From Agrobacterium vitis (lineage in GTDB: Bacteria > Pseudomonadota > Alphaproteobacteria > Rhizobiales > Rhizobiaceae), in contig NZ_AP023272.1 in assembly GCF_013426735.1 (NCBI RefSeq), positions 3,640,501-3,704,500 on the forward strand: a stretch of 64,000 bases of DNA, read 5' to 3'. A program made the position numbers and the translations under genes. The notes below the pieces were generated by a model. The model searched no databases and was not told the DNA's origin. It was given only the letters and a program-made list of their open reading frames with translations. Below are positions 9,575 through 37,108 of this stretch, piece by piece (positions within the stretch are counted from its first letter, which is position 1; every line of letters begins with the position of its first letter).

Positions 9575-9579
9575 CTAGG

Positions 9580-10581
9580 TGTTTGATCCCGGACTTTAAT
9601 GGTGCATTATTTTCCCTCGAATGGAAGGAAGCAGTATGGGCCAGGTTCTACACGGTCGCGCCACAACGACAGAGGCAATCCGTCGAGCAATACAAAATAG
9701 TCAAGAGAGCCTGAGAGCGCTCTCAAAGCGGTATGGGATCAACCCGAAGACCGTTGCCAAGTGGAAGAAGCGCACATCGGTTGCCGATTTGGCGACCGGG
9801 CCGAAGGAACCGCATTCGACAGTCTTGAGCCTCGAGGAGGAGGCCGTGATTGTCGCCTTCCGCAGGCACACGCTTCTACCTTTGGATGATTGCCTTTATG
9901 CCCTTCAGCCAACAATCCCGCATCTGACGCGCCCGTCCTTACATCGATGCCTACAGCGCCATGACATTTCACGACTGCCGGAAGTCGAGGGCGACAAGGA
10001 GCCAAAAAAGAAGTTCAAGAGTTACCCCATTGGCTACTTTCACATCGATATCGCTGAAGTCCAGACCGCTGAGGGCAAGCTCTATCTGTTTGTGGCCATT
10101 GATAGAACGTCCAAGTTTGCCTTCGTCGAGCTTTACGCCAAAGCCGGAAAGATGAATGCAGCCCAATTCCTGCGCAATCTGGTCAAGGCTGTGCCCTATG
10201 CCATCCATACGGTTCTGACGGACAACGGCATTCAGTTCACCAATCGGGACTGCGATCTCTACGCCTTCCATCACATCTTCGACCGGGTCTGTGACGAGAA
10301 GAATATCGAACACCGGCTGACAAAGGTGAAGCACCCTTGGACCAATGGGCAGGTCGAGCGGATGAACCGGACGATCAAGGAAGCGACCGTCAAGCGTTTC
10401 TACTACGACGATCACGACCAACTCAAAAGGCATCTCGCCGACTTCATTGATGCCTATAATTTCGGGCGAAGGCTCAAGACCCTAAAAGGCCTCACGCCCT
10501 ACGAATTCATTTGTAAACGATGGACTTTGGAGCCGGATCGTTTCATCATGGATCCGATCCATCAAATGCCGGGACTAAACA
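9580..10581 (+). mobile_element. IS481-family insertion sequence
   Basis: About 1,002 bp with imperfect terminal inverted repeats: the left end reads TGTTTGATCCCGGACTTTAA, and the right end read inwards is TGTTTAGTCCCGGCATTTGA. It contains one IS481 transposase frame. Two bases (GG) separate its left end from the CTA that also occurs at 11231-11233 after the IS5 remnant, so it seems to have landed in, or next to, that IS5 copy. Confidence 0.8.
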
Positions 10582-10829
10582 GGTTTCGGACAGGTTCACC
10601 CTGGGCAGACGTTCCTGATCGATATGGTCCATATACAACCTGCTACAACCGTTTCGTGCGATGGCGAAAGGCGGGTGTCTGGGATCATGTTCTGGGCGAG
10701 ATTTCCAAGGCTTTCGACGGCGATATCGTTATGATCGACAGCTCCTGTGTCCGTGTTCATCAACATGCGGCCACGGGAAAAAGGGGGATCAACACGATGG
10801 CTGCATGGGACGTTCCCGTGGCGGCTTGA
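9636..10829 (+). CDS. IS481 transposase, reading through into IS5 transposase sequence
   Basis: ATG 9636 begins MGQVLHGRATTTEAIRRAIQ, the normal IS481 N-terminus with a helix-turn-helix (SLRALSKRYGINPKTVAKWK). The rve integrase core follows, with acidic residues in FHIDIAEVQ, TDNGIQF and GQVERMNRTIKE. The family-typical end HQMPGLN is at the right inverted repeat. Here no stop occurs, and the frame continues for about 80 residues of IS5-type transposase (FRTGSPWADVPDRYG onwards) before stopping at 10829. The chimera is a by-product of nested insertion; the IS481 part could still be functional. Confidence 0.85.
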   Translation: MGQVLHGRATTTEAIRRAIQNSQESLRALSKRYGINPKTVAKWKKRTSVADLATGPKEPHSTVLSLEEEAVIVAFRRHTLLPLDDCLYALQPTIPHLTRPSLHRCLQRHDISRLPEVEGDKEPKKKFKSYPIGYFHIDIAEVQTAEGKLYLFVAIDRTSKFAFVELYAKAGKMNAAQFLRNLVKAVPYAIHTVLTDNGIQFTNRDCDLYAFHHIFDRVCDEKNIEHRLTKVKHPWTNGQVERMNRTIKEATVKRFYYDDHDQLKRHLADFIDAYNFGRRLKTLKGLTPYEFICKRWTLEPDRFIMDPIHQMPGLNRFRTGSPWADVPDRYGPYTTCYNRFVRWRKAGVWDHVLGEISKAFDGDIVMIDSSCVRVHQHAATGKRGINTMAAWDVPVAA

Positions 10830-11230
10830 CCACCAAAATCCACGCCGTTGTCGATGCCGATGGCCGACCGATCCGTCTCGCACTCACAGCCGGTCAAGCC
10901 CATGATGGTCGCATGGCAGAACCATTGTTACAGACAATCTCCAAGGGTGCGATCCTGCTGACGGACAAGGCCTACGATACCAACGCGATCAGAGCATTTG
11001 CAAAGCAAAGGCAGGCATGGGCCAATATTCCTGCCAAGAGCAATCGGAAGGGAAGCTTCCCTTTCAGCCAATGGGTTTACCGACAGCGCAATCTCGTTGA
11101 GCGTTTCTTCAGCAAACTCAAACAGTTCAGAGGCATCGCAACCCGTTACGACAAAGACCCATTGAACTTTCTCGCCGCTGTCAAATTGGCAGCAGCAAGA
11201 ATTTGGATCAGATCGTTATGAGTCTACGGC
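10582..11230 (+). mobile_element. IS5-family element, left end missing
   Basis: Only the right two thirds of an IS5-type element (two overlapping transposase frames) remain. Its right end is CTACGGC at 11230, directly followed by CTA, which is also found at 9575-9577 just left of the inserted block. This is consistent with a 3-bp target duplication CTA from insertion into the ISL3 transposase gene. The first 50 or so codons and the left end of the IS5 element are absent, presumably lost when the IS481 element arrived. Confidence 0.7.
10661..11221 (+). pseudogene. IS5-family transposase, C-terminal frame
   Basis: From about MGRSRGGLTTKIHAVVDADG onwards this is the DDE domain of an IS5-family (IS427-like) transposase, ending IWIRSL. 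The catalytic context LTDKAYDTNAIR is visible and RNLVERFFSKLKQFRGIATRYDK carries the late Glu. The first frame lies within the IS481 fusion, and the switch between frames falls at a GGGAAAAAGGGGG run near 10778-10790, a plausible programmed frameshift site. Because the N-terminus is missing, the gene is dead. Confidence 0.8.
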
Positions 11231-12251
11231 CTAACAGAGGAAGATGAGCCTCAAGGGAACTTTGTCTGACACGGAACACATCGGATCTGTGGCCGCGGAC
11301 AATCTGGCGCACGGTTCCACGGCTGTAGCCGGTTCGTCGAACGATTTCCTTTATCGGAACGCCGGCGGCGGCGAGCCTACTGATCGTCGTATTCACGTCC
11401 TCGCGCCTCATATAACTGTCATATTGCAGCCGTTCAGCGCAGGTGAGTAGTTTAGGGTCGATCGTCGTAGCGCCAATTGCAGCACGGATTGCTCGCATGG
11501 ATTTGCGCACGACGTCAAGGAACGCCGCGCTGGCGTTCTCCATTAAATGCCAACGATCTGCGACCTGAACTGCATGGGGTAAAGCCCTTGTGGCAGCTTC
11601 ACGATAGCCGCCACCTCGATCGCGGGAAATGATCGTTATTTCGGGGTGCTGAGCGAGAAACGTCGAAACTGTTGCGATCTCCCGGTCCGGCAGAAGCTTG
11701 ATAATCCTTCGTCTCTCAAGATCACATACGACGGTGCCATAGCGGTGATTGCGGCGGAAAGCCCAGTCGTCAACCCCGACGACGCTGAGCGTATCATCCG
11801 GCGCAGCGGATTTTCTTCTTACTGCGCGGATCAGAGTGTAATTGCTAACTGGGATCATCAAACGTTTGGCGAACGCTGCCGCAGGTCGCCCTCCCAGAGC
11901 CAACCCGAGATGATGTACGACAGTATCAAGCCGAGCAGTTCGACGACTGCGCTCCGGAACGACAAGCTCTCCAAATCTTTCGACGAAAATTCGACGACGG
12001 CAGAATGTCATCTCACAAACGAAGCGCCGTGCCGACAGGCGCAATTGGACTTTCGTGCCGGCACAGGGCAAATCGGCAATTATCCGAACGTAACGGCTAT
12101 GAATACGACCTGACATGCAGTTGCATAAAGGGCAGGAACGTTGATCGGCGGCAGCTCGCGCTGAAACAATGATAACCCCGTCACTCTCGTCGGAACGCTC
12201 TACAATCAATCCGGCCGGGATCAGGGAAGACAGACGAAATTTGGTCGCCAT
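11208..12251 (-). pseudogene. ISL3 transposase, N-terminal part
   Basis: The frame starts at ATG 12251 and encodes ISL3 transposase residues 1 to about 343. It has an N-terminal zinc-finger-like region (CPLCNC), a helix-turn-helix, and DDE motifs VGVDDWAFRR, SRDRGGGY and VADRWHL. After LEAHLPLL, at 11231, the frame enters the IS5 right end and stops within a few codons. The remainder of the protein is at 9039-9574. The C-terminal HTH region (GYSRGTVRQIVRG) precedes the break. Confidence 0.88.
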
Positions 12252-12331
12252 GGTACTGATTCCTTTCTGATAATTGCGCCAGTCTTGACTGCGAAATCAT
12301 CAAATGTGAGTCAGGCCCAATTTTGCACGCC

Positions 12332-12669
12332 GAAACATAAGCCGGTAAATAGAGGTGTCCAAGTGTGCCGGCGATGAAGAAGTCACGCCAGGTTTGCAGA
12401 TATTCACCATTGGCGACTGAGACGAGCTTTACCACTGAACCTCGTTGAAACGGGCAGGATTGCCTCTCACATGGCTTTGAAAATGTCTTTCTTCTTCTTA
12501 GTATGAGAGTACAGTATAGGCTGGCGCTGCTACTAGCTTGTGAGGTGTGTAGCCCACGTCAGCAGTCTCATTAAGAGAATATTAGGCAGAGGGTATCGCT
12601 GATCAAAAATTGGCAATGACGCGACTAATGTACCATTTATGGGTTGAAACGGGAGTTAGGAAAAGAAAA
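12332..12669. other. Gene-free stretch between ISL3 end and ribE
   Basis: About 340 bp with no convincing gene. A minus-strand frame ending at 12435 crosses the ISL3 end and has no recognisable content. The right end has the ribosome binding site of ribE (GGGAGTTAGGAAAAG). Base composition falls towards the AT-rich cluster. Confidence 0.4.
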
Positions 12670-13431
12670 ATGTTTACTGGAATTGTAAGTGCTGTCGCGA
12701 CGGTTGATGAAATTACCGGAGATGATCAATTCAAATCATTTACTCTTAAGTTTCCTTCGGGTTTTTGTGACGATCTTTTGGTCGGCGCCAGTGTAGCGGT
12801 CAACGGAGTTTGTTTGACAGCAGTAGCCGAGGTGGACAAAGATTGCTGGAATTTTGACGTTATCTACAAAAGCATCACTGCTACGAACCTCAACAATATC
12901 ACCGTTGGGCAAATCGTTAACGTGGAGAGGTCTGCACGGGAAGGCGCAGAGATTGGTGGTCACGTAGTTTCTGGACATGTCGATTGTGCTGGCTTTGTGG
13001 ACACAATAATCGAAAACGGAAAAAATAAGTGCATACGAATCGGGTTTCCTAAGGAATATGCTATTTATCTCTTCTCACAGGGTTTCGTGGCGATAAATGG
13101 TGCTAGCCTAACAATTGCGGATATTGGAAAATCTGACTGTTGGATTGAGGTTTGGCTAATTCCGGAGACTAGGCGTTCAAGTAATCTCGACCGCCTCGTT
13201 ATAGGTGATCTCGTAAACATTGAAATCGACCGGGCAACACAGGTTGTTGTAGAGACTATCCGAGATGCGATTCAAAATTTTTGCGAGAATTATTTGGCGC
13301 AAAAGATCACAACGATGAGCACTGAATTGCTCAGAGAGCGTCTTCTCAATGAAGAAGATACAAGGTCTTTAGCCGCCAGTATCGTTAATTCTAAGATTGT
13401 CGCTATCGGAAATGGAGGGAGTAAACCGTGA
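12670..13431 (+). CDS. ribE: Riboflavin synthase alpha-type protein (RibE-like)
   Basis: ATG 12670 gives MFTGIVSAVATV, the standard riboflavin synthase N-terminus, behind a good purine-rich binding site. Two lumazine-binding repeats are visible: the first has VAVNGVCLTA and ends in the GGHVVSGHVD motif, the second has FVAINGASLTIADI. By family it converts two 6,7-dimethyl-8-ribityllumazine molecules to riboflavin plus a ribitylaminouracil. The protein has 253 residues, 35-40 more than usual; the extra C-terminal helix-rich tail (QNFCENYLAQ onwards) is unexplained. It faces the nine-gene operon tail to tail and shares its AT-rich composition, so it is not the housekeeping copy. It could synthesise a flavin or bind a flavin-like product. 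Confidence 0.85.
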   Translation: MFTGIVSAVATVDEITGDDQFKSFTLKFPSGFCDDLLVGASVAVNGVCLTAVAEVDKDCWNFDVIYKSITATNLNNITVGQIVNVERSAREGAEIGGHVVSGHVDCAGFVDTIIENGKNKCIRIGFPKEYAIYLFSQGFVAINGASLTIADIGKSDCWIEVWLIPETRRSSNLDRLVIGDLVNIEIDRATQVVVETIRDAIQNFCENYLAQKITTMSTELLRERLLNEEDTRSLAASIVNSKIVAIGNGGSKP

Positions 13432-13489
13432 AAGTTAACACCTCTAAACACCTCCCCATTTCTCGGATCATGATTTCACGGAAAGAATC

Positions 13490-15325
13490 TTAGACGACTT
13501 TGAGTGCTGACAAAGCACGATTGATACCAGCAATAAGTTTTTCGTCGGCGAGAGAACCTCGTGATGCAATGCGCACAAATCTTTCGCCGTCATTCATTTC
13601 CTTGCCGCTGCAGTTTTTTACCAGAATACCTTCGTTATTCAGAAGCCAGCTGCATAAAGTGTTTGATGTGATATCCTGATATTCGATTTTCGCGAAAACA
13701 AAATTGCTATGCGAAGGAAAAATTTTCAAGCCCTTGATATTTTTAAGTCCCTGAGAAAGTTTGGCAACATCGTTTCTTACCTTTTCGCAGGATGCATCAA
13801 ACTCACGTTTGAATGCAGAAAATATTCTGAGATATTCCTCTCCAAAACCATTAATATTCCAGATCGGAAGGTGTTTTCGAATTGATCTGATAAATTCGTC
13901 ATCTCCGGATGTTATAACACCAATTCGAAGCCCACCAATCCCATGGCTTTTCCCAAGGCTTAGGAGATGGATGATACGCGGGTCCTGCGCAGAACGGACC
14001 ATCCATTTATGACGCGCATTATCATTTTGGAAATCCGCAAACGACTGATCTATAACAAGTCTGACATTATGCTCACCGCAGATTTCCAAAATTTCCTCTA
14101 TGTCTTGATCTGGAACGGCTGCTCCGGTGGGATTATTAGGGGTAACTAAGACAAAATAATCAACCTGAACTCTCGCCAACAGATTTCGCACCTGGTCCGG
14201 ATCCACTCGGAAGTTATTATTTTCATTGAGCATAATAGTGTGTGTATTTATGGGCGAAACTAGCCGCGTGAACTCGTTAAATGATGGACTCGCGAGAGCT
14301 ATTCGAACTCCCTCTTTAGAAAAAAGGATCGGTATAACCTCACTTATTCCATTGCAAACGGCAACTGATGCGTCATTTACCTCGTAATAGGCAGATGCCC
14401 AACGGCATATCGCTGTCTGTCCGCTTGGATAAGCGCCCAGGATCAACTCCGCGCGATCCGCCAAATGCCTGATAAGTTTCTTCGGAGGGTAATGGACGTT
14501 GTGTAGGAGAGAGTGGTCTGTAACTGGATATCTCCAATAGCCTCCATAAGACGCGTTGATCTGGCTCAAGCGATACCCATCGGAGCCAAACCGAAAGCTT
14601 GCCAAGTCGAGATCATTTGCGTTATCAATCTCGTACCAATCTCTATCTTCGACAATGGAGGCGTAAAACGAAACCTCTCCACTATAGATATGTGCAGCAA
14701 AAAGGTCCTCATAATAACAATCTAATACTCCACGTTCGACGTGCTGGTTCAATAATTCAATTAGTCGACCACTAGCGTATTCAGAGGTGATCTTGTAAAA
14801 ATTTACCGTTTTGTATAATTCTGAAACCTCGCCGTAAGTCCGTTGCCGTGGTGCACTAATGATGCGAGGTTGACCCGAAACGGTAACGCAAGCGCCGTCC
14901 ATAAAGTATTTAAATGGTGAGATTACTGCGCCACACATGGTCTCAGGTATTTCAGCCAATGACTGAAATAAACTGGCTGAGCCAAAAACGTCTGACTCCA
15001 AGAGATAAAAATCTTTCTCGAAAAAGCTACGCGTTAACCAGAGCGAAAAAACGTTATTTGTTTTCGAAAATTCATTATTATTTATAATAAATAGATTTGT
15101 ACATTCAGGCAATATATTTTTTACATGATCAATAAGAATATCCGACGCGAATCCGACTACCAAAATTATTGTTTTTACGCCGATACGATTTAAATGAATA
15201 AAGGTGTTCTCAATAATTGATTTTCCATGAACCTCTGTTAAGGGCTTAGGTGCGTTTTGTGTAAAAGGAAAAAGTCTCGCGCCTTGCCCTGCGGCCAAAA
15301 TAATCGCTCTGTCGACTTTATACAT
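13490..15325 (-). CDS. Nucleotidyltransferase / PLP-dependent aminotransferase-decarboxylase fusion
   Basis: From ATG 15325 (GGAG eight bases upstream) the protein has 611 residues in two enzyme domains. Residues 1 to about 245 are a sugar-phosphate/LicC-type nucleotidyltransferase: LAAGQGARLFPF, KPLTEVHGKSI, ESDVFG and a closing DWYEIDNANDL. Residues 255-611 are a class I/II PLP enzyme of HisC/CobD type: TPNNPTGA near 395, IDQSFADF near 425, and the Schiff-base lysine in SLGKSHGIGGLRIG (Lys about 459). Similar fusions are known in phosphonate pathways (PntC-type, FrbH), where CTP activation is joined to transamination or decarboxylation. With the SerK-like neighbour, I infer phosphoserine decarboxylation plus CDP activation. 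Last gene of the operon; AT-rich. Confidence 0.85.
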   Translation of the reverse strand: MYKVDRAIILAAGQGARLFPFTQNAPKPLTEVHGKSIIENTFIHLNRIGVKTIILVVGFASDILIDHVKNILPECTNLFIINNNEFSKTNNVFSLWLTRSFFEKDFYLLESDVFGSASLFQSLAEIPETMCGAVISPFKYFMDGACVTVSGQPRIISAPRQRTYGEVSELYKTVNFYKITSEYASGRLIELLNQHVERGVLDCYYEDLFAAHIYSGEVSFYASIVEDRDWYEIDNANDLDLASFRFGSDGYRLSQINASYGGYWRYPVTDHSLLHNVHYPPKKLIRHLADRAELILGAYPSGQTAICRWASAYYEVNDASVAVCNGISEVIPILFSKEGVRIALASPSFNEFTRLVSPINTHTIMLNENNNFRVDPDQVRNLLARVQVDYFVLVTPNNPTGAAVPDQDIEEILEICGEHNVRLVIDQSFADFQNDNARHKWMVRSAQDPRIIHLLSLGKSHGIGGLRIGVITSGDDEFIRSIRKHLPIWNINGFGEEYLRIFSAFKREFDASCEKVRNDVAKLSQGLKNIKGLKIFPSHSNFVFAKIEYQDITSNTLCSWLLNNEGILVKNCSGKEMNDGERFVRIASRGSLADEKLIAGINRALSALKVV

Positions 15326-15770
15326 TCTCAGATACTCCAAAATCTGCAATATTGCTCAACAATTCCCGTATCGGTACATTTACTTTTAAGTCACGCCCAG
15401 GGTGTGAAAAACGTGTGGTTTTTTGAGGATACAAAACACGTGTAGCTGCACGTTTAAGAAAAGATTCCATCGTAATCGAGCAGCAAGGCTTCCAACTGCC
15501 TAAGCATAAATAGGGATCCTCTTTATCGACGAGAAAAGCTGGTATTCTCCAAAATTTTAAAAAAATTGACGCAGCTAAACGATGATGTCCATCAAGAACA
15601 TATAATGGCTCTTTAAGTAATAATACCGGCTCCGTCCAAATCCCTTTAGTGAAAATCTCAACCGAAATGGACTTCGCCAAATCTACATCATGTTCCTCAG
15701 TAGGTAATATATCATCAACGTTCACAAACGAGCTAACTTTCTCAACTAAAGATTCATTATAATCGTTCAT
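15318..15770 (-). CDS. ParB/Srx-fold protein resembling SerK/SbnI serine kinases
   Basis: The 150-residue protein has the compact ParB-like fold signature VLDGHHRLAAS (60-68) and a later YPQKTTR (114-120), as in the SbnI/SerK group of free L-serine kinases, which make O-phospho-L-serine. A Glu pair at 25-26 (ILPTEEHD) is where that group has its catalytic Glu. It is much smaller than chromosomal ParB and lacks a helix-turn-helix, so partitioning is unlikely. It overlaps ribD by 14 bp upstream and the fusion gene by 8 bp downstream, which suggests tight co-translation with the PLP/nucleotidyl enzyme. The kinase role is inferred. Confidence 0.65.
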   Translation of the reverse strand: MNDYNESLVEKVSSFVNVDDILPTEEHDVDLAKSISVEIFTKGIWTEPVLLLKEPLYVLDGHHRLAASIFLKFWRIPAFLVDKEDPYLCLGSWKPCCSITMESFLKRAATRVLYPQKTTRFSHPGRDLKVNVPIRELLSNIADFGVSENV

Positions 15771-16875
15771 TAATCCGCTCCCATGTTTGGATAAAATTAG
15801 CTCTTACCGTTTCAATACTATCTAACCGAAGATATGAACCATTCAATAAATCTAAGATATTATCGCTATCATGGCCAGTTAACTTGGGCTGCCCAATATT
15901 TTTGCCAGAACTGAATATACGGAGCCTATCTACTAATCTCCCTTTTAGCAGAAGATCAGCTAGTCGTGTTCCCCCACCACATAAGACATTATTAAATCCA
16001 AGCTTCACCAATTCATGTAGTGCTGCTCTCAAATCTCCATTTCTGGAAATATTATAATTCAATAAAAATACTCTATTATTTATGAAATGTTGTAATTTAA
16101 ATGGATTTTTGACATCTTCATGTAAAAGAAAATTTTTGAATTTATCGCCCGACGGCACCAAAAAACTATCATGAATTAATCCACATTCTGGTGCCAAAAT
16201 AACAAACGCCGGTCTTCTATTAATAGGGATTTCTTGTAAAATTAAAATCAGTATATCCGAAAAATGCTCGCACCCGTCAATTAAAACCGCATCCATTTCG
16301 ACAAGAGAATGTCGCATATGCTGTCGCATAGCATCAAATGGAATCAACTTATTCGCACTCGACAAAGTGGCAATTTTATTATCCAGTGTCATACCAAGAT
16401 TTACTGTGATAAATGGTAATCCAGATGTAACTCGCTTGAAAAATGCTTCGTGTTCGATGTCCGCTTGTTCCTTTCGCAGTCCTTTACGAGCATCAATTCC
16501 GAGTTCTGCAAGCTTTTTTAAACCCGCCCCTCCTACTCGTGAGTCTAAATCTTCAGTGGCAGCAATGACTTTTTTAATCCCCGCTTGGATAATTGCGTCA
16601 ACACACGATATTCCCCGTCCAGAATGACAACAGGGCTCCAAGGTAACGTAAAGCGTCGCGCCATTAGCCAAGAATCCCGCGTTATTAATCGCAATAAATT
16701 CGGCATGGGGACGACCGCCTGCTGCTGTAGCGCCCTCTCCTACAATTTTCCCATCATTAACAACAACACAGCCAACGCTAGGATTAGGGGACGCGCCAGT
16801 GCGATTACGTCCCCCTAGGAAAAGTGCTCTTGACATAAAGAACTCATCTTCGGCTGTAAACAAGGCCGCCGTCAT
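15757..16875 (-). CDS. ribD: RibD-like deaminase/reductase
   Basis: ATG 16875 follows an AGAGGA site; an upstream in-frame start would overlap the exporter gene. The protein has 372 residues. The N-terminal deaminase domain has the zinc motif HAE (57-59) and PCCHSGR (81-87) with Cys91. The usual TPPC after GR is GISC here, a change next to the substrate pocket. The C-terminal reductase domain begins at FITVNLGMTLDNKIA and retains VLCGGGTRLADLLL, but it is more divergent than housekeeping RibD. By family, it turns the GTP cyclohydrolase II product into 5-amino-6-ribitylaminouracil phosphate. Operon member; AT-rich and probably a transferred paralogue. Confidence 0.85.
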   Translation of the reverse strand: MTAALFTAEDEFFMSRALFLGGRNRTGASPNPSVGCVVVNDGKIVGEGATAAGGRPHAEFIAINNAGFLANGATLYVTLEPCCHSGRGISCVDAIIQAGIKKVIAATEDLDSRVGGAGLKKLAELGIDARKGLRKEQADIEHEAFFKRVTSGLPFITVNLGMTLDNKIATLSSANKLIPFDAMRQHMRHSLVEMDAVLIDGCEHFSDILILILQEIPINRRPAFVILAPECGLIHDSFLVPSGDKFKNFLLHEDVKNPFKLQHFINNRVFLLNYNISRNGDLRAALHELVKLGFNNVLCGGGTRLADLLLKGRLVDRLRIFSSGKNIGQPKLTGHDSDNILDLLNGSYLRLDSIETVRANFIQTWERINERL

Positions 16876-16886
16876 CTCGAAATCCT

Positions 16887-18062
16887 CTATCGGTTCCGTT
16901 GAAAACCAAAAGTTAATACGGCCGCGCAAGTTAGAATTATTAATATGTATATATTTAAAAATTCTGGATGCTCGACATTATAATTGAATGTTCCAACAAA
17001 AAGAGATACTATACTTCCTATGATGTTCACTATTCCAGATCCTAAGCCTGTCGCCATTCCGGAGGACTGCGATATCCCACTTAACATGCCAATCGATGAA
17101 GTTGAGATAATAATTCCGTTCCCTATTCCGACGAAAAACATTTGAATGAAGAAGCACATTAGTGGATTAACGCCGAAGTGAATCGTTAAAGTTCCAGTTA
17201 CGGCGCTAGCCAAGGAAATGAGGCATCCCGATTTAAGAACTTTGCGCCAGCCAAAATTTTCGCAGGCTATTCCCGACGCAAGATTTCCTAAGAAGTAACC
17301 AACTGGATTTAAAGCAAAAATAATTGAAAATTCTAAAGGCGAAATTGAAGTGTGATTCGCGACTAGGAAAGTTGCTGTTGTGAAATAAATGTAAAAAACG
17401 CTGGACGACAGTGCCGCAACTAGGGAAAAAATAACAAATGTTGTGTCGCTAGCGATGTACTTAATTTGCGACATTATGCTCGGAAGACGATGGCTGCTTT
17501 CGGTTGCTGAACTTTCATTAAGCCTCCCCACAATTGTTAGTAGTCCTGATGCGAAGATAATCAGAAGGATTGGAACTGAAATCCAACCGAAGGCATTAGA
17601 TATCCCAGCACCGGCCAGTGGTCCGAATATCGAGGAACATGAAATCGCAAGTGACGCATACGCCAGCGCCGATGCAGCTACGTCAATAGTCAAATTTTTT
17701 CTAAGGAGAGATCGTGAAACGACGGTTATTCCCGCGATGACGCCCTGGAGAGCGCGAAATAAGAAGAATTGGTTTGCCGATTGAGAAAAAACTACACCAA
17801 TGGATGCAGCAAAGAACAGAATCAACACAACGATCACTGTGTATTTTTCTCCTTTTCTATCGGATAGCCATCCTGCAAGGATTTGTGAAAAGGCTGCAAC
17901 CGAAAAATAAATCGAAGTTGAAGATTGAATTAATCCGTGAATGTCTGAAAAGTCCAATGCTATCCTGGGCAAGACAGGGATAAGCATGTTAGACGACAGA
18001 GACGGAAGTAACAGAATTGAGCCAGAGATGGCGACCCATTTCGCTTTGTGTGATATAACCAT
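16887..18062 (-). CDS. MFS exporter, Bcr/CflA-like drug efflux type
   Basis: The 391-residue protein is almost entirely hydrophobic with about twelve membrane segments. The start resembles Bcr/CflA transporters (MLIPVLPRIALDF), and the loop between segments 2 and 3 has GWLSDRKGEK, the MFS motif A. Proteins of this group pump small molecules out of the cytoplasm in exchange for protons. It lies in the middle of the metabolic operon, 11 bp from ribD and 21 bp from licD, so export of, or resistance to, the cluster product is the natural inference. The product is therefore probably secreted. Confidence 0.88.
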   Translation of the reverse strand: MVISHKAKWVAISGSILLLPSLSSNMLIPVLPRIALDFSDIHGLIQSSTSIYFSVAAFSQILAGWLSDRKGEKYTVIVVLILFFAASIGVVFSQSANQFFLFRALQGVIAGITVVSRSLLRKNLTIDVAASALAYASLAISCSSIFGPLAGAGISNAFGWISVPILLIIFASGLLTIVGRLNESSATESSHRLPSIMSQIKYIASDTTFVIFSLVAALSSSVFYIYFTTATFLVANHTSISPLEFSIIFALNPVGYFLGNLASGIACENFGWRKVLKSGCLISLASAVTGTLTIHFGVNPLMCFFIQMFFVGIGNGIIISTSSIGMLSGISQSSGMATGLGSGIVNIIGSIVSLFVGTFNYNVEHPEFLNIYILIILTCAAVLTFGFQRNR

Positions 18063-18083
18063 AAAGCTACTTTCAATCTTCTG

Positions 18084-18761
18084 TTATTTCTGTGCCCCGA
18101 TTTGCGTCGTGGGGGTCGCGCATGAAAAATCACATATGGTAACAATTTTTTTTTCATTGCGCCGCCATTCAACATGATTCCATGTCAGATAGGCTGAAGT
18201 CTCCCAACCACTTCCATAGGTCCTGTTTAGATAGGAAGCGGCGTCGCGTGTGGAAATGGCGTTTACCCAAAGAGGGCCAAAAGGTGTCGGAGTACGCGAC
18301 AGCCATTCACTTTCCAGCAAAAACTCTTGCGGAAAAAATTCACGCGCCTTATCGCTTTGGAATGTGATCCGGTTATCCTCAAATCTACGCATAAGAAACA
18401 AGTCAACAAATGGGTATGAACTATTGTGCAAAGCGTCGACGCGAGGGCGAGAAGAAAATGAAACTTTGAAACAAACATCTTCTTCAAAGATTTCGATATC
18501 AGCGTAAGCTCGGAATGCATTGACAAATGCAATCCAACGGCAGTCGCTAGCATCGATATAGCACCCGATATCCACATCATCGTCCCAAGGGATCAATCCC
18601 CTGTGACGAACAGCACCGAGAAGCGTTCCAGATATGATCGAATACGGGACGCTATGCTTTTCTAAGAGATTTCCGGTTAATCTCAGCAAATGATAAATAT
18701 CATCTACGATATTTTGTGGCGTTCTAGGAAAAATAGCGTCAGTCTCGTGATTGGTTGTCAT
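18084..18761 (-). CDS. LicD-family phosphotransferase
   Basis: The 225-residue protein carries the hallmark GTLLGAVRHRG followed by PWDDDVDIG, the metal-binding core of the LicD family (nucleotidyltransferase fold). LicD enzymes transfer phosphocholine or similar phospho-alcohols from a CDP-linked donor to a sugar or glycan; some relatives transfer other phosphoryl groups. No signal peptide or membrane segment is seen, so it acts in the cytoplasm. The nucleotidyltransferase fusion in the same operon could make its donor. The acceptor is unknown; no glycan genes lie nearby, which points to a small-molecule acceptor. Confidence 0.88.
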   Translation of the reverse strand: MTTNHETDAIFPRTPQNIVDDIYHLLRLTGNLLEKHSVPYSIISGTLLGAVRHRGLIPWDDDVDIGCYIDASDCRWIAFVNAFRAYADIEIFEEDVCFKVSFSSRPRVDALHNSSYPFVDLFLMRRFEDNRITFQSDKAREFFPQEFLLESEWLSRTPTPFGPLWVNAISTRDAASYLNRTYGSGWETSAYLTWNHVEWRRNEKKIVTICDFSCATPTTQIGAQK

Positions 18762-18771
18762 AAATTAGTCC

Positions 18772-20355
18772 CTAGATCGCGATTGCCACGCCGTCTCCTC
18801 GCGGATCGGTCGCGGCGAAGTAGGTTTTATCGGACTTTTTGAAGCCCGCCATTTGGGCTACACCCATCTTTAGCGAGTAGCGTTCGAGTACGCTGAGTAC
18901 CTGACCGAAATTACTCAGAGGCATCTCACTGAGCCATATAACTTTATTAGCCTTTGGAAAAAACCCAAAGTTGGCCGCACGTGGTGAGGAGAGAACGGTT
19001 GACAACCGTTGCTTCCAAACAAGTATCCTAAACAAAAGCTGTGCAAGTACTTGAACTTGCACAGGTCCTCCAGTTGTTCCCAACGATAATTTATACTCTA
19101 TATTTTCAACCAATAACGCATTAGTTGTGTGGGGTGCGGGCATCCGTGGTTTTAGTAATTTCCAGTCGGCGGAGTTTAATGAAAATGCTGACGCTCTATT
19201 CGATAGAGATAGATCCGTTTCGCCAACATTTACAAGCGCTCCAAACGGTGTGAATGTTGACCCCGTTAAACCGATCACCGCGCCATTAGCTCCTGCTAAA
19301 GCGGCAAAAACGGTATCGCTTCCTGCTGACAAGGCAGGTAAAAGGGTTGTCGCGTCCAAGCCGCGCACGACATGGGATGATATCTCCGATACAATATCGT
19401 TTTGATTGGGAGGTAATTCATCAGTTCTAGTGCGATAAGGAAAGTCATTAAGAACTTGTGATAAAATACCTGATGCGATGCACACCAAAGTGAAAAGTTC
19501 GTTGTCCGATTTAATGCCTTTGCGTTTGTTGAAGAAATCAAGCACGCGCAACAAAACGAGGAGTTCAAGCCATGGCGTATTTGGACCGACTAAGGTGATT
19601 TTGGCATCGAATACATAATCGGTAACGAGTTCGGACTTCACACTTTCAAAATCGGTAATGTCCTCGCCGGAGAAAATACCGCACGAATCCCTGCTAATAA
19701 CATTAGCAATATGTGATCCAAATGTACCGGAGTAGAGATCTTCAAAGCCGTTTAGTGCGATAGCGTCAAGTGTATTGTTACTCGATTTGGGCCATTTTAT
19801 GAAACGATCTTTAATGTCCGACGCAAGAAGAGACTTCTGCCATAATGGTAGATTTTTTGCTCTCTGCAACTCGTGACTATGCGTATCCAAAAAATAATCG
19901 AGAGTTTTAGTTCTCGCCAATGTATCTCCAGAGGCAGATCGAATCCTTGCGGCGATTGACTTTGCATCGACATCGAACGTTTTCGAGAAGAGATCGAGGC
20001 CACGTGGGGCTCCGTAAACCATTGCGCTTTCCCAGCCGCGACGTGGAATTGATGAAGAGAAACGGTCAGGTAGGTGGCCTGTGCCGCTTCGTCCGCATCC
20101 ATTCACGCCAAAAGCCGTGCCGTCTCGGCTAGAATGAATAATAATACAATCGCCACCGAGACCGCATAAGTGCGGGAGTTGACGACCAAGCGAAAGTAAG
20201 GCTGCAGTGGCAGAACTCTCCAAAGAGCTAGAAGCCAGAAATTCCGTTAAGCAAAGGGTCGAGGATAACACATCGGGTGTAGCGACAGCGAATATTTCTC
20301 CTTCGGCGAATGAGCTTTGTCCCAATCTAGATTGGCATTCGCTGCTCATTTTCAT
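18772..20355 (-). CDS. Gamma-glutamyltransferase-fold (Ntn hydrolase) enzyme
   Basis: The 527-residue protein matches the GGT family in several places: CGLGGDCIIIHS (64-75), the putative self-cleavage site GSDTVFAAL with nucleophile Thr348, LTGSTFTPFG, LSNRASAFSL, TTGGPVQVQ in place of the usual PGGS-type loop, and the C-terminal AATDPRGDGVAIA. Ordinary GGTs are exported; this one has no signal peptide, so it should act in the cytoplasm. By family it would cleave or transfer a gamma-glutamyl or related amide. In the operon it may remove or add a protecting amide group. The large-subunit region is divergent, so substrate cannot be guessed. Confidence 0.75.
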   Translation of the reverse strand: MKMSSECQSRLGQSSFAEGEIFAVATPDVLSSTLCLTEFLASSSLESSATAALLSLGRQLPHLCGLGGDCIIIHSSRDGTAFGVNGCGRSGTGHLPDRFSSSIPRRGWESAMVYGAPRGLDLFSKTFDVDAKSIAARIRSASGDTLARTKTLDYFLDTHSHELQRAKNLPLWQKSLLASDIKDRFIKWPKSSNNTLDAIALNGFEDLYSGTFGSHIANVISRDSCGIFSGEDITDFESVKSELVTDYVFDAKITLVGPNTPWLELLVLLRVLDFFNKRKGIKSDNELFTLVCIASGILSQVLNDFPYRTRTDELPPNQNDIVSEISSHVVRGLDATTLLPALSAGSDTVFAALAGANGAVIGLTGSTFTPFGALVNVGETDLSLSNRASAFSLNSADWKLLKPRMPAPHTTNALLVENIEYKLSLGTTGGPVQVQVLAQLLFRILVWKQRLSTVLSSPRAANFGFFPKANKVIWLSEMPLSNFGQVLSVLERYSLKMGVAQMAGFKKSDKTYFAATDPRGDGVAIAI

Positions 20356-20382
20356 AGTTATTTTATCTCCTGATTGCTGACT

Positions 20383-21168
20383 TCAAATTTTCTGGGCGTT
20401 TATCAACGTTGTGCCATAAGAGACCTGGTACCGGTTGGCCACATACTCTTCATAAAGCCGTGAATAGTACATTTCTGTAGCTACGGCGGCATCAGAATTT
20501 GTAAATTGCTTTCCGACGACGGAGCCACTTCCAACATGCCAGTCGCGGAAGTCGTCATAGTTGCTAAAATCCAACTTTTCTTCGTGGAACGAGATCTTCG
20601 CGATCGAAAATCCGTCAAGGAGAGTCGGAATTTCGGAAGTAGAGAGCCGACGTGAATCGAAACTTTCTACAGGCGCGATTGGTGGAAATCTTTCACGAAC
20701 TTGGTTGATGATGGATGTTTGCATTGAATTTTCACCTGGAAGAAATGAGAATGCTAAGGCGGACGACATATGTATCGATCCACCATCTCTCAACAATCCA
20801 CGGATCTTTTTGATGACGGACTTCTGATTGGGATGAAACCAATGTAAGCATGCCGCGCAAATTACATGATCGAAAATTCCGATCTCAGGCAACTCGTGTT
20901 GTAAAAAGTCACCAATATAAAACGCCGAAGATGTGGCTTTACTTTTTGCAATTTCGACCATTTGGGGAGATATATCGACACCGACATATTCAGTGCATCC
21001 AATTCTCTCCAACATTTCATATGCATTTCCAGTCCCGCATCCAACATCTAGAACCCGACCACTCGGTTGGCCGCGGTCTAAAAGTGTTTGTAAGTACTGC
21101 TTTTGCAGTTTTTTTGATGTTCTTTCATATGATGCTGCATCAGCCCAAAGATTACTTAAGTCGTTCAT
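20383..21168 (-). CDS. Class I SAM-dependent methyltransferase
   Basis: The 261-residue protein has the SAM-binding motif I VLDVGCGTGN, motif II EYVGVDIS, and a later FDHVICAACLHWFHP. The overall pattern resembles small-molecule O-, N- or C-methyltransferases of the Methyltransf_11/25 type. The start at ATG 21168 overlaps the stop of the BKACE-type gene by 4 bp (ATGA). Within this operon a tailoring methylation of the product is the simplest inference; target atom unknown. Composition is AT-rich like its neighbours. Confidence 0.85.
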   Translation of the reverse strand: MNDLSNLWADAASYERTSKKLQKQYLQTLLDRGQPSGRVLDVGCGTGNAYEMLERIGCTEYVGVDISPQMVEIAKSKATSSAFYIGDFLQHELPEIGIFDHVICAACLHWFHPNQKSVIKKIRGLLRDGGSIHMSSALAFSFLPGENSMQTSIINQVRERFPPIAPVESFDSRRLSTSEIPTLLDGFSIAKISFHEEKLDFSNYDDFRDWHVGSGSVVGKQFTNSDAAVATEMYYSRLYEEYVANRYQVSYGTTLINAQKI

Positions 21169-22028
21169 TCATCTACTCCAAAATTTTTTCCATCATTCTT
21201 CAATCCTAGCAAATCGCGCGCTTCGCGAGCGCTCATCAGCGGCCGCTCTGATATCTCTGCTAGCTCGACGACTCTTTGAATTAGGGTAGCATTAGTAGCT
21301 GCAACAGTTCGATTAGCGTCAAACCACAAATTATCCTCCAAGCCTACGCGAACATGGGAGCCATCAGCAATTGCCATTGCGTTGGCAATTATTTGCTGCC
21401 GCCCAATTCCTCCGTATGATAGAATACCTGCATTTCGCAGCTCCTGCCAAAATGGCGCCACGTGACATGGCGTCGCTTGAGCGCCATATACATTTCCGAA
21501 AATAACGTTAAAATAGAATGGTGGCTCGAGCATTTTTCGAGACGAAAGATAATGCCATGCATTAAGCATTCCAAGATCAAATATCTCGAGCTCAGGCTTA
21601 ACACCATTTTTCTTTAGTGCGCTACAAATATATTTTATTGTTTCAGGCGAATTTATACTTTCCTTGCTTGAGAAATTTAAAGAGGAAAGGGTTAGGGATG
21701 CCATGTCAGGCTTCACTGTACCGGAAAGTTTAATCGGAGCGCAACGTCGTTCAGGATCACTGATGTTGCGACCACTTAAAGATACGCAAATAATTAAATC
21801 GCTATTATACTTTCGGATTCCTTCTATGATTGCTGCATATATTTCAGGGTCCGATAAAGGTGCTCCAGAGGCCGGATCACGCGCGTGAAGATGTGCAATG
21901 CAGATACCCTTGGACGCAGCGTCAAGAACGTCATTGATAATTTCGGTAGGCGATATAGGGACGTGCGGAGAATCTGTTTTTTGTGGTAGCATTCCGGTAG
22001 GGGCGAAATTTATCAATAATTTTTTCAT
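21165..22028 (-). CDS. BKACE-type beta-keto acid cleavage enzyme (DUF849 family)
   Basis: The 287-residue TIM-barrel protein starts LLINFAPTGMLP and has the zinc-binding HLHARD (46-51), with later GGIGRQQ and GLEDNLWF motifs of the DUF849 family. Characterised members condense a beta-keto acid with acetyl-CoA and release acetoacetate and a CoA ester, as Kce does in lysine fermentation; others act in carnitine breakdown. It is second in the operon, 15 bp after ribA. A member between riboflavin-type genes and a methyltransferase is unusual. It might cleave or form a carbon-carbon bond in the product or supply an acyl-CoA. Confidence 0.85.
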   Translation of the reverse strand: MKKLLINFAPTGMLPQKTDSPHVPISPTEIINDVLDAASKGICIAHLHARDPASGAPLSDPEIYAAIIEGIRKYNSDLIICVSLSGRNISDPERRCAPIKLSGTVKPDMASLTLSSLNFSSKESINSPETIKYICSALKKNGVKPELEIFDLGMLNAWHYLSSRKMLEPPFYFNVIFGNVYGAQATPCHVAPFWQELRNAGILSYGGIGRQQIIANAMAIADGSHVRVGLEDNLWFDANRTVAATNATLIQRVVELAEISERPLMSAREARDLLGLKNDGKNFGVDE

Positions 22029-22043
22029 CGGAATAGCCAGTAG

Positions 22044-22637
22044 TTATCGGATCGTGATATTGTGACCGTGCTTCTGTTTTGCAGTTAAATATCTGATATT
22101 ATTTTGATTTAGAAAGGTTGGCGTATTGATAATTTCAACCAATGAAACTTCTGAACCGGAAAAAACAGAAATTTTCGCTGGATTATTTGTTATCAATCGT
22201 ATCTTTGAGACACCCAAGGCCGAAAGCATACTCGGAACGAATGTGAAATCACGCCCATCATCTTTGTGGCCGAGAAGCCTATTGGCAGAGAATGTGTCAA
22301 TGCCATTATCTTGTAGTTTATACGCTGAAAGCTTTTCATAGAGACCGATTCCACGACCCTCTTGCCTCAGGTATAAAAGCACCCCCCCCGATTCATTTAG
22401 CATATCAATCGCGAAGCCCAATTGGTTCCCGCAATCGCATCGCTCAGAATGAAACAAGTCACCAGTTATACATTCTGAATGAATTCGAACCTTCGGAGCG
22501 TAGTCATCGCTGGAGCTCTTAAAAACAACTGCGAAATGCTCAAGATTATCTTGCAATCCAGAAAATGTTACAAATGTGGGGGCTCTATGCGGCGATCTGC
22601 CAATAGGAATTTCAACACTATCTCGAATTTCTATCAT
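22044..22637 (-). CDS. ribA: GTP cyclohydrolase II (RibA-like)
   Basis: The 197-residue protein is a single-domain RibA without a DHBP synthase (RibB) domain. It shows the zinc ligands Cys56, Cys67 and Cys69 in ECITGDLFHSERCDCG, the catalytic LRQEGRGIGL and the SANRLLGHKDDGRDF motif. By family it opens GTP to 2,5-diamino-6-ribosylamino-pyrimidinone phosphate with loss of formate, the first committed step of riboflavin and also of some azapteridine antibiotics such as toxoflavin. It is first in the nine-gene operon, so the promoter should lie at 22638-22950. AT-rich composition sets it apart from core genes. Confidence 0.92.
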   Translation of the reverse strand: MIEIRDSVEIPIGRSPHRAPTFVTFSGLQDNLEHFAVVFKSSSDDYAPKVRIHSECITGDLFHSERCDCGNQLGFAIDMLNESGGVLLYLRQEGRGIGLYEKLSAYKLQDNGIDTFSANRLLGHKDDGRDFTFVPSMLSALGVSKIRLITNNPAKISVFSGSEVSLVEIINTPTFLNQNNIRYLTAKQKHGHNITIR

Positions 22638-22974
22638 TTTCTTGCCATTTTGAATTTAACTTCATTGGATCTTGGCCTATATCATATCGGTCAGATCGAT
22701 GAAGCTACATGATTTATACTCTTTCGACACCAAACTATACAAAATCAATATCATGATCAGAGGAAATTCGCGGCGACTGCGCTCTTTATTACATTAAATA
22801 GCTAACATTGAGCTCGCGTTTTGCGGACTAGTTATGACGCATAACATATTTGATGGAGCGAAGAAATAAAAAACCGTCATAAAATTGAAAAAAATGTAAA
22901 CGATACATCGTCCTATGTTGCATACCAAATCGGCCCTTTAATTGCGGGACTTAGAGGCTGCCTCAAAAAGAGGT
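22638..22974 (-). other. AT-rich leader and promoter region of the metabolic operon
   Basis: About 340 bp without a gene, between ribA (read leftwards) and an IS5 remnant. It is AT-rich with several A/T runs and probably holds the operon promoter. I searched by eye for an FMN riboswitch and saw no convincing match. Confidence 0.4.
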
Positions 22975-22992
22975 GGGTGATTTCTACAGGTT

Positions 22993-23268
22993 ATGATTCC
23001 TTCGGATTTGCGAGATTCGATGGAGTTCACGATGGCCTGGACCAAAATCACCCGCCAGCAATATGCCCGGCGAAAGGCACGCTACGCAAGCGATATGACA
23101 GATCGGGAATGGGGGCTGGTTCAGCCTTTCCTGCCGGTGCCCCGCCGCTTGGGCCGTCCACGGACCACGGATTTACGCGAGGTCGTCAACGCTCTGCTTT
23201 ACATCGCCTCGACCGGTTGCCAGTGGCGCATGCTGCCGAAGGATTTTCCGCCCAGTTCAACCGTCCAG
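22993..23268 (+). pseudogene. IS5-family (DUF4096) transposase, N-terminal fragment
   Basis: The likely start is ATG 23032 ([15 protein letters not shown]), followed by [18 protein letters not shown] and [13 protein letters not shown], the standard N-terminal domain of IS5-type transposases. Coding identity stops at 23268, where the IS3 inverted repeat begins; the catalytic domain is nowhere to be seen. The gene is dead, and the missing remainder implies that a deletion followed the IS3 insertion. Confidence 0.8.
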
Positions 23269-23308
23269 GGGGGTGCGGACGAAAACTTGGACCACCAGGA
23301 GGTAGTTC

Positions 23309-23809
23309 ATGTATTCCTACGCAGACAGACTTCGAGCTGTTGAGCTCTATATCCGACTTGGCAAGCGGCTCAAGGCGACCATTCGCCAGTTGGGTTATCC
23401 CACGAAAAATGCCCTGAGGGGCTGGTGCCGCGAGTACGTACAGCATCTCGACCTGCGTACTCAGCCGGTAGCGCGAGCGCCAAAATTTTCCGAGGCCCAA
23501 AAGCATGCTGCCCTTGAGCATTACCGCACCCATGATCGTTGCATCTCTGCGACGATGAGGGCGCTCGGCTATCCCGGTCGAGGCACTCTAACCGCATGGG
23601 TTCGTGAGGCGTTTCCGGAGGCGCGGACATCGATGGTTGGTCGATCGTGGCACCCTTGTTATTGCGAGGAGGTCCGGCAAGTGGGGGTCATAGGTCTCTG
23701 TAGTGGAGATGAACGCGCTCAACAGGTGGCTGACCGGCTGGGCGTCTCAAGGCCGACTTGTACAGCTGGAAAGATCAGTTACTCGGTCACGAGGCTCCCT
23801 CATCCATGA
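23309..23809 (+). CDS. IS3-family transposase, upstream frame (helix-turn-helix)
   Basis: ATG 23309 starts [20 protein letters not shown]. Two helix-turn-helix segments are visible ([21 protein letters not shown] and [21 protein letters not shown]), the DNA-binding part of this IS3 subgroup. In this frame the protein goes off course after [11 protein letters not shown] near 23757, while the next frame continues with the expected [10 protein letters not shown] single missing base, for example ACCTTG changed to ACTTG, would explain it; a programmed -1 shift is possible but the site has no obvious slippery heptamer. Confidence 0.8.
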
Positions 23810-24846
23810 AACGCCGCAAATCCAACCCCAAGGTGCCTGAACGTGAAGAGCTCGAGCGACAGCTTGAAGCCCTCCAGCGTGATGTCCGCCAGTTACAACT
23901 CGAGCATGATCTCCTGAAGAAGGCCAACGAACTCCTAAAAAAAGACCTGGGCGTCGATCTGCAGATCCTGAGTAATCGGGAAAAGACACAGCTGATTGAC
24001 GCCCTTAAGGAAGTTTATCGCTTGCCAGAACTGCTTGCCCAGCTTCGGATTGCCCGCAGCTCCTACTTCTACCATCGCGCCCGCATGTGCCTGGCAGACA
24101 AGTATGCCGCCGTCCGCCACAGCCTAGCAGAGATCTTTGAAGCGAACCGTCGTTGCTACGGTTATCGACGACTGCAGGCATCGCTGGCCAGACAGAGCGT
24201 GATAATCTCGGAAAAGGTTGTTCAGCGATTGATGAAGCAGGAGAAGTTGGTCGTTGCTAGGCCGCGTCGACGGCGGTTTGGATCCTATCTGGGAGAGATC
24301 AGTCCAGCGCCCGAGAACCTGATCAATCGCGACTTCCATGCAAAAGCGCCGAACGTGAAGTGGCTGACAGACATCACCGAGTTCCAGATCCCAGCTGGCA
24401 AGGTGTACCTTTCGCCTATCATCGATTGCTTTGACGGCATGGTCATCAGCTGGTCGATCGGAACGCAACCAGATGCTGGTCTCGTCAATAGCATGCTGGA
24501 TGCAGCCATCGGAACCGTCGCCAACGGCGAGGAACGGCCAATCATCCATTCTGATCGCGGAGCCCATTATCGCTGGCCAGGCTGGCTAACCCGGATCAGC
24601 GAAGCGAAGCTGGTTCGCTCGATGTCCCGAAAGGGTTGCTCGCAAGACAATGCCGCGTGCGAAGGCTTCTTCGGCCGGTTGAAAACCGAACTCTTCTATC
24701 CCCGGGACTGGAAGGCCATGACAATCGAACAGTTCGTCGGCGAGGTGGATGCCTATATCCGCTGGTACAATGAGAAGCGCATCAAGATATCGCTGGGATC
24801 GCTCAGCCCGGTCGAATATCGTAAAATCCTCGGCCTGTTATTATGA
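23758..24846 (+). CDS. IS3-family transposase, catalytic frame
   Basis: The frame encodes a coiled-coil leucine zipper region (LERQLEALQRDVRQLQLEHD) and an rve integrase domain with catalytic acids in LTDITEFQI, IIHSDRGAHY and CEGFFGRLKTE. The end HIKIS-like region RIKISLGSLSPVEYR is family-typical. It lies in the -1 frame relative to the upstream part and overlaps it by 52 bp. If no frameshifting occurs, the element cannot move by itself. Confidence 0.88.
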   Translation: MYSWKDQLLGHEAPSSMKRRKSNPKVPEREELERQLEALQRDVRQLQLEHDLLKKANELLKKDLGVDLQILSNREKTQLIDALKEVYRLPELLAQLRIARSSYFYHRARMCLADKYAAVRHSLAEIFEANRRCYGYRRLQASLARQSVIISEKVVQRLMKQEKLVVARPRRRRFGSYLGEISPAPENLINRDFHAKAPNVKWLTDITEFQIPAGKVYLSPIIDCFDGMVISWSIGTQPDAGLVNSMLDAAIGTVANGEERPIIHSDRGAHYRWPGWLTRISEAKLVRSMSRKGCSQDNAACEGFFGRLKTELFYPRDWKAMTIEQFVGEVDAYIRWYNEKRIKISLGSLSPVEYRKILGLLL

Positions 24847-24874
24847 AGCAGTCCAACTTTTTATCCGCACCCCC

Positions 24875-25321: not shown

Positions 25322-25449
25322 AATGGGGTGATCAATGACAATGCGCGGAGGCTACTTGTCGACACCAATAATGAGCTTCAAAATATGAAGCTTCCTCCAT
25401 GAAAAGGGACAGGGCCATGCACTACCGCCCTGCTAATTATTTCCGCCTA

Positions 25450-36292: not shown

Positions 36293-36304
36293 GGAAGACG
36301 AATT

Positions 36305-37099: not shown

Positions 37100-37108
37100 G
37101 GTTGTGAC

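Follow-up and report, generated by a model that had tools for sequence, protein, structure and literature searches.

This analysis concerns a ten-gene cluster at positions 12670-22637 of a 64,000-nucleotide stretch of Agrobacterium vitis DNA (contig NZ_AP023272.1, positions 3,640,501 to 3,704,500), which we call the window and whose coordinates are used throughout. An initial annotation, made from the letters alone, had proposed an AT-rich metabolite cluster built on paralogues of RibA, RibD and RibE and fenced by insertion sequence (IS) elements. All ten open reading frames were confirmed as intact at the coordinates below, and Pfam and NCBIfam scans returned the gene families as first named, the match of the SerK-like protein being weak.

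12670-13431, plus strand: RibE-type riboflavin synthase of the PRK13020 subfamily, 253 residues (NF009566, 241 bits, over the 180-bit cut-off)
13490-15349, minus strand: fusion of 619 residues, LicC-like nucleotidyltransferase (N half) and CobD/phosphoserine-decarboxylase-like pyridoxal phosphate (PLP) enzyme (C half) (PDB matches; TIGR01140, 143.8 bits, below the 290.55-bit cut-off)
15318-15770, minus strand: compact, putative SerK/SbnI-like free serine kinase, 150 residues (weak match to NF053625, 31 bits, E 1.3e-7, cut-off 380 bits)
15757-16929, minus strand: RibD-like deaminase with a reductase half lacking ADDPxLTVR (TIGR00326, 205 bits, over cut-off; alignments)
16887-18062, minus strand: Bcr/CflA-like MFS exporter (MFS_1, 89 bits, over cut-off; TIGR00710, 132 bits, below cut-off)
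18084-18761, minus strand: LicD-family phosphotransferase (PF04991, 51.7 bits, best stretch residues 34-70)
18772-20355, minus strand: GGT-family Ntn-type enzyme, predicted nucleophile Thr348 (PF01019, 106 bits)
20383-21168, minus strand: S-adenosylmethionine (SAM) methyltransferase (PF08241, 69.9 bits; 39% identical to that of the Salmonella cluster described below)
21165-22028, minus strand: BKACE (DUF849), an acetyl-CoA-dependent enzyme (PF05853, 264 bits; alignments)
22044-22637, minus strand: RibA, GTP cyclohydrolase II, first gene of the operon (NF001591, 234 bits, over cut-off)
9621-12251, no strand assigned: left transposase block, a flank outside the pathway (rve, DDE_Tnp_1, DDE_Tnp_ISL3)
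22993-24846, plus strand: right transposase block, a flank (DUF4096, rve)

The nine minus-strand genes form a single operon with RibA at the front and intergenic gaps of -43 to +27 bases, while RibE, the sole plus-strand gene, converges on it at a distance of 58 bases. The guanine-plus-cytosine (GC) content of the cluster is 43.0%, compared with 57.3% for the window outside 9001-25400, and the minimum over 69 overlapping windows of about 10 kb lying wholly outside the cluster is 54.1%. Transposase domains were found on both flanks; no Rfam family matched within the cluster. The tight operon, the AT-rich composition and the IS fence of the initial annotation were therefore all borne out, and the interval is foreign-looking, apparently acquired DNA. 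For every known cluster kind compared (riboflavin operon, roseoflavin, azapteridine and flavophos), one or more defining features are missing here. A literature search, with subscription journals mostly outside its coverage, brought up work on flavophos, roseoflavin and pseudoiodinine, among others, and no description of such a gene set. We rate the cluster as a variant of riboflavin-pathway natural-product clusters that was not previously described.

The front end of the pathway carries the expected motifs for its first two activities. RibA retains the three zinc cysteines and the catalytic Tyr of the family, with the stretches SECITGD..RCDCG and LLYLRQEGRG, as a GTP cyclohydrolase II should. 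In RibD, for which an ATG at 16875, after the stop of the MFS gene, is a more likely start than the TTG at 16929, both deaminase zinc motifs are present (HAE and PCCHSGRGISC, of the form PCxxxxxxxxC). However, the stretch of the reductase half that aligns with ADDPxLTVR reads FSDILILIL, where the host RibD has ADDPDLTVR, and it does not look like a functional reductase. The RibD of the Salmonella cluster has 144 residues and is a deaminase only, with no reductase domain. Because the deaminase motifs are kept and the reductase substrate motif is absent, the branch point from riboflavin would be 5-amino-6-ribosylaminouracil phosphate. Host genes for RibD, RibE and RibH lie together at C1:2845-2848 kb and one for RibBA elsewhere, at C1:3345 kb, so the rib genes of the cluster are second copies. 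Moreover, ribB/ribBA and ribH are absent among the ten genes in the Pfam and NCBIfam scans, which agrees with the initial annotation that this is not an ordinary riboflavin operon. Two features of the host genome may be mentioned here. The cyclohydrolase half of the host RibBA (C1:3345449-3345898), the sole other PF00925 match in the genome, lacks the CDCG zinc motif, so that the host may have no complete GTP cyclohydrolase II other than the cluster RibA, and a second lumazine synthase gene lies at C2:42766-43176.

The greater part of the gene set is found again on a Salmonella plasmid, and a smaller part on a Streptomyces plasmid, so that the lack of any conserved association, which the initial annotation had named as a refutation, does not hold. 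On Salmonella plasmid NZ_CP034710, genes for GGT, RibD, RibA, BKACE, methyltransferase and RibE stand in one run followed by MFS genes, and NZ_CP034699 is the same DNA over 6.8 kb. By eye, the Salmonella exporter looks like another MFS type, and the annotation of one of these plasmids splits it into two pieces. Over the aligned parts, identities to the window proteins are 46% for RibA, 45% for BKACE, 39% for the methyltransferase, 38% for RibD, 36% for RibE and 30% for GGT; the six Salmonella genes have 35% GC. The Salmonella copy is the best plasmid match both for GGT (186 bits versus at most 85 for the others listed, 20 of 138 records) and for the methyltransferase (189 bits versus at most 68 for the others listed, 12 of 39). 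Thr348, the predicted nucleophile of GGT, takes the place of residue 1 of 5hft chain B in the alignment, and the Thr is kept in the Salmonella GGT. On the plasmid of Streptomyces camelliae (HUAS 2-6), RibA, BKACE and methyltransferase genes occur in the window's order (45%, 40% and 27% identity, respectively), followed by an MFS-type frame. This locus is considered a partial relative because its methyltransferase is only 27% identical and its GGT is barely alike (E 0.015 to the window GGT and 1.6e-5 to the Salmonella GGT). Together, the related sets suggest an undescribed family of natural-product clusters.

The Streptomyces operon is divergent from rosG and ribE2 of a roseoflavin rosB cluster (rosG, ribE2, ribX, ribY, rosB), which brings up the idea that the window encodes a roseoflavin-type flavin-analogue pathway. 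RibA, RibD and RibE would then raise the supply of riboflavin, and BKACE, GGT and the methyltransferase would alter the flavin ring. The joining of RibA, BKACE and methyltransferase to a rosB cluster speaks for this account, as does the sharing of a GGT-family gene, only distantly like RosG, and of an extra riboflavin synthase. In roseoflavin producers ribE2 is interpreted as feeding the pathway, and 8-demethyl-8-aminoriboflavin is the predicted product of Streptomyces sp. HUAS 2-6 (PMC11039241); the terms ribA and cleavage were not found in the main text of that report. On the other hand, the flavodoxin-type domain of RosB, RibB and RibH were not among the ten genes in the Pfam and NCBIfam scans, nor was a RibXY gene. 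The S. camelliae ribE2 product is an archaeal-type riboflavin synthase (TIGR01506, over cut-off), unlike the window RibE. With respect to RosA and RosC, the window has a methyltransferase, and the same scans found no phosphatase domain among the ten. Finally, the RibD reductase half is degraded here and absent in Salmonella, which would be no help to riboflavin supply. We consider a flavin-analogue cluster possible but doubtful.

The flavophos bsf cluster of Burkholderia, as far as it is described in PMC12871164, resembles the window cluster in having an exporter and an enzyme of the BKACE family, and in duplicating a riboflavin-pathway enzyme on the opposite strand. The duplicate is lumazine synthase there and riboflavin synthase here, and PepM and phosphonomethylmalate synthase were not found among the ten genes (Pfam). 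The window BKACE retains the zinc His pair and Glu and has Phe150 where canonical BKACEs have Tyr. This residue aligns with the Tyr145 position of CcaKce (numbering apparently offset by 6) and with Phe166 of chain 9zsc, which was taken as BsfD because its Phe166 agrees with the flavophos paper. The authors of that paper suggest that acetyl transfer and decarboxylation, instead of cleavage, may be tied to the Tyr-to-Phe change (PMC12871164). Phe occupies the same position in three uncharacterised DUF849 structures (3no5, 3chv and 3fa5), and Phe150 was for this reason dropped as proof of BsfD-like chemistry. In addition, a loop insertion of about 20 residues in BsfD is missing from the window BKACE in the alignment.

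Another pathway that starts from the same enzymes is that of the azapteridines. The pseudoiodinine psd operon, with which toxoflavin is grouped in this likeness by the account of PMC9911603, has GTP cyclohydrolase II, RibD and a methyltransferase in common with the window. An azapteridine-like pathway of this type would require new ring-closing enzymes, with the phosphoethanolamine module considered below as a decoration. However, no WD-40, sulphatase-modifying-factor or glyoxalase-type domain was found among the ten genes (Pfam), and BKACE, GGT and RibE do not appear in the seven-gene psd list given in PMC9911603, so that we regard this route as quite unlikely.

Three genes of the window, those for the SerK-like protein, the nucleotidyltransferase/PLP fusion and LicD, are absent from both the Salmonella and the Streptomyces relatives. 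The initial annotation had listed them singly; we read them instead as one putative phosphoethanolamine-type module. Judged from their families, the SerK-like protein would convert serine to O-phosphoserine, the fusion would decarboxylate this to phosphoethanolamine and activate it as cytidine diphosphate (CDP)-ethanolamine, and LicD would put phosphoethanolamine on the product. The module is viewed as an add-on because the Salmonella cluster lacks all three genes. The top PDB match of the N half of the fusion, for which the ATG at 15325 is the more likely start, is 1jyk, a cytidine triphosphate (CTP):phosphocholine cytidylyltransferase. That of the C half is 6oux, followed by CobD 1lc5; we take 6oux to be a Sulfurospirillum phosphoserine decarboxylase. 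A nucleotidyltransferase-PLP fusion of about 620 residues is also seen in 6pd1, presumably PntC. There the partner is a class V aminotransferase, whereas the PLP half of the window protein is CobD-like class I/II and the cluster has no phosphonate mutase. Compared with LicC/LicD phosphocholine decoration, the window shares the CTP-dependent nucleotidyltransferase fold and the LicD motif, and differs in that phosphoethanolamine would come from serine via the SerK-like and CobD-like enzymes. By family name, neither a choline kinase nor a choline importer is among the ten.

The SerK-like protein had no Pfam match at E 0.01. It aligns to 5x0b and 1vk1 (archaeal SerK) with scores of at most 22.9 bits, and has the conserved Glu (presumably Glu30 in T. 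kodakarensis) and the DGHHR motif by which SerK and SbnI are recognized. It shares the ParB-like fold with these free serine kinases and is shorter, with 150 rather than 242 residues. The SerK product is given as O-phosphoserine (PMC5120207), and SbnI is likewise listed as O-phosphoserine-forming (reference list of PMC12704722); as a caution, one SerK-like protein bound CTP and not adenosine triphosphate (PMC12704722). A compact SerK relative at one rhizobial locus, of 95 matching records, adjoins cysteine-synthase-like, octopine-dehydrogenase-like and IucA/IucC genes, the make-up of an Sbn-type siderophore cluster.

Relatives of the fusion match in 520 plasmid records, of which eight loci were examined. 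A CDP-alcohol phosphatidyltransferase gene is nearby in four of the eight: Rahnella, Erwinia, A. vitis (where the relative matches only part of the fusion) and Rhizobium sp. 007 (where the genes are separate). In Gloeothece, LicD lies one gene on with a methyltransferase in between, and an unannotated Fusobacterium record has a short match to LicD some 2.8 kb away. Neither a CDP-alcohol transferase nor LicD was found at the Priestia and Pseudonocardia loci. LicD relatives in two rhizobial plasmid loci (of ten matching records) are near cytidylyltransferase genes. Conversion of phosphoethanolamine to phosphocholine by the cluster methyltransferase was set aside as less probable, since this enzyme is kept in the module-less Salmonella cluster; against this stands the methyltransferase between fusion and LicD in Gloeothece. 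Other gene groupings of interest came to light in this survey. On both the Rahnella and the Erwinia plasmid, the nucleotidyltransferase/PLP fusion stands in a row with CDP-alcohol transferase, HAD, ATP-grasp and MFS genes, which has the look of a cluster for a small molecule, and Rhizobium rhizogenes pC5.7d combines LicD with a phosphocholine cytidylyltransferase, a phytanoyl-CoA-type dioxygenase, VOC proteins, a methyltransferase and an MFS gene, possibly for another LicD-decorated metabolite.

As a control, relatives of the BKACE with 29-50% identity were surveyed in the best 80 of at least 600 genome stretches and in 11 viral contigs (91 loci, with flanks of different length). RibA, RibE, RibD, LicD and SerK were found in none of the 91 flanks at E 1e-5; GGT was present in three, a weak fusion match in two and a weak methyltransferase match in three. 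None of the 11 viral BKACE loci had RibA or RibE, and no viral contig had GGT. Among the 36 best-scoring BKACE loci, a hexapeptide-type family lay within 6 kb in 18 and a DegT aminotransferase family in 9, each neighbor family being named from one representative. Because such neighbors are frequent, this BKACE subfamily appears to be often of polysaccharide-locus type, and the cluster may have recruited it. The same neighbors, together with the LicD and fusion relatives amid glycosyltransferase genes in Gloeothece, would suit a locus for the decoration of surface glycans or lipids by phosphoethanolamine or phosphocholine transfer, with the riboflavin genes gathered by chance. Yet no glycosyltransferase domain was found among the ten genes (Pfam), and on the Salmonella plasmid the bulk of the set stands without LicD, SerK and the fusion, making a surface-decoration locus highly unlikely. 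As an aside, hexapeptide acyltransferases and DegT aminotransferases are recurrent neighbors of this BKACE subfamily across several phyla, which suggests a role in unusual sugar acylation.

When 397 genomes of the order were searched at E 1e-30, GGT was found only in the genome that holds the window, and the same was true for 346 genomes of the family, a set that lists four others of the same genus, and for 398 genomes of the phylum at E 1e-40; these sets may overlap. A search of genome contigs by GGT alone gave no match. Similarly, the class to which the genome of a Pseudomonas triticifolii locus belongs gave no GGT match in 369 genomes, an empty result that says little as it had no positive control. 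Of 392 Streptomyces genomes, one had a match to the BKACE of the Streptomyces cluster at E 1e-50, at the S. camelliae plasmid coordinates, and neither the Salmonella GGT gene nor an orphan RibE of a Salmonella plasmid had a match in E. coli genomes.

RibE was counted as a biosynthetic part in the initial annotation, but it may instead confer immunity. The question of whether it is a self-immunity copy of a riboflavin synthase inhibited by the product seems to us evenly balanced. The protein is 29% identical to the host RibE. Its gene's opposite orientation to the operon speaks for immunity, as do stray copies elsewhere on plasmids. An orphan RibE on CP054717, with no annotated core genes around it, is 63% identical to that of the Salmonella cluster; two decayed RibE pieces lie elsewhere on the Salmonella cluster plasmid, and a broken RibE is found on an Acinetobacter plasmid. 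In a tree of ten chosen rows, with long branches flagged, the CP054717, Salmonella-cluster and Acinetobacter proteins form a group (97/99), and they differ from E. coli RibE at 100, 143 and 185, although not all in each. The window RibE joins those of Bosea and Vibrio campbellii plasmids (95/95), both orphans with no other core gene annotated nearby. At sixteen sampled positions, including active-site positions, it differs from the E. coli enzyme by C47V, K137Q and D143N and retains C48, H97, H102, S146, T148 and D185, a retention that fits the supply role in the flavin-analogue account. A precedent for immunity is provided by flavophos, where a duplicated pathway enzyme, lumazine synthase, protects (PMC12871164).

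The window RibE also has a C-terminal tail of about 50 residues, and the Bosea and Vibrio campbellii proteins carry tails of other sequence. The tail (13280-13431) ends in KIVAIGNGGSKP, which bears a likeness to the start of the SIS sugar-isomerase domain although there was no Pfam match, and may be a fused gene remnant. Its uncertain origin, the IS flanks and the exporter in two pieces on one Salmonella plasmid would be in keeping with a decaying island that is no longer productive. All ten frames are open, however, and the operon spacing is tight, and decay is very improbable.

Weighing these results, we lean, a little past an even balance, towards a mobile biosynthetic cluster whose product, a secreted antimetabolite, derives from the early steps of riboflavin synthesis and is probably capped with ethanolamine-phosphate. 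This reading is carried by the six of ten genes plus exporter on the Salmonella plasmid and by the RibA-BKACE-methyltransferase order on the Streptomyces plasmid. In the proposed pathway, RibA would open GTP, and the RibD deaminase would lead to 5-amino-6-ribosylaminouracil phosphate, where the route would leave riboflavin. BKACE may then draw on a beta-keto acid and acetyl-CoA to supply a carbon unit, the GGT-family enzyme may trim or transfer an acyl group, and the methyltransferase may cap a nitrogen or oxygen, before the decorated product is exported, by family, by the MFS protein. The acquired metabolite cluster with riboflavin-pathway enzymes and an exporter that the initial annotation had put forward is thus supported. 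Of its secreted flavin- or ribityl-pyrimidine-derived compound, the riboflavin-pathway metabolite with an exporter stands, whereas "ribityl" is not implied by the cluster because RibD, with the substrate motif missing from its reductase half, looks like a deaminase.

Several observations weigh against the antimetabolite reading. The Streptomyces GGT is distant (19-23% identity over parts) and could be a ros-cluster gene entirely. The window BKACE is nearer to some polysaccharide-locus BKACEs (up to 50%) than to that of Salmonella (45%), which also counts against a single common origin. For the head-group module, the CobD and SerK matches are both below their NCBIfam cut-offs, and the SerK match is weak; its predicted structure had a mean pLDDT of 35 and was not used. 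RibE could be a supply enzyme because it falls outside the Salmonella/Acinetobacter plasmid clade and keeps most of the sampled active-site positions. In the flavophos system, lumazine synthases of several organisms and low-activity mutants also protect (PMC12871164), so the duplicate there is not a specially resistant form. Lastly, the genome samples that held no further cluster were small, and the 369-genome search was the one without a positive control.

A more specific version of the antimetabolite reading, which we hold only tentatively, is that the cluster represents an unseen natural-product class: a pyrimidine- or lumazine-type riboflavin synthase inhibitor, capped in this strain with serine-derived phosphoethanolamine, with RibE copies as immunity genes that also travel alone, for protection, on the plasmids of several bacteria. 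A small metabolite of the flavin pathway would also be, to our knowledge, an unfamiliar target for LicD and a head group derived from phosphoserine. Bacteria make riboflavin, whereas animals must eat it. A mobile cluster family that starts from the riboflavin pathway and carries its own riboflavin synthase would therefore be a lead to a further compound targeting this pathway; the authors of the flavophos study state that, to their knowledge, only phosphonothrixin had earlier been reported to do so (PMC12871164). The cluster also provides a testable claim as to why extra riboflavin synthase genes ride on plasmids.

Two further features of the window lie outside the cluster. At 32890-39241, a VgrG-type gene of a type VI secretion system is followed by small genes of lower GC, possibly an effector-immunity island, and a SAM_alpha riboswitch was found at 47042-47120 (Rfam).

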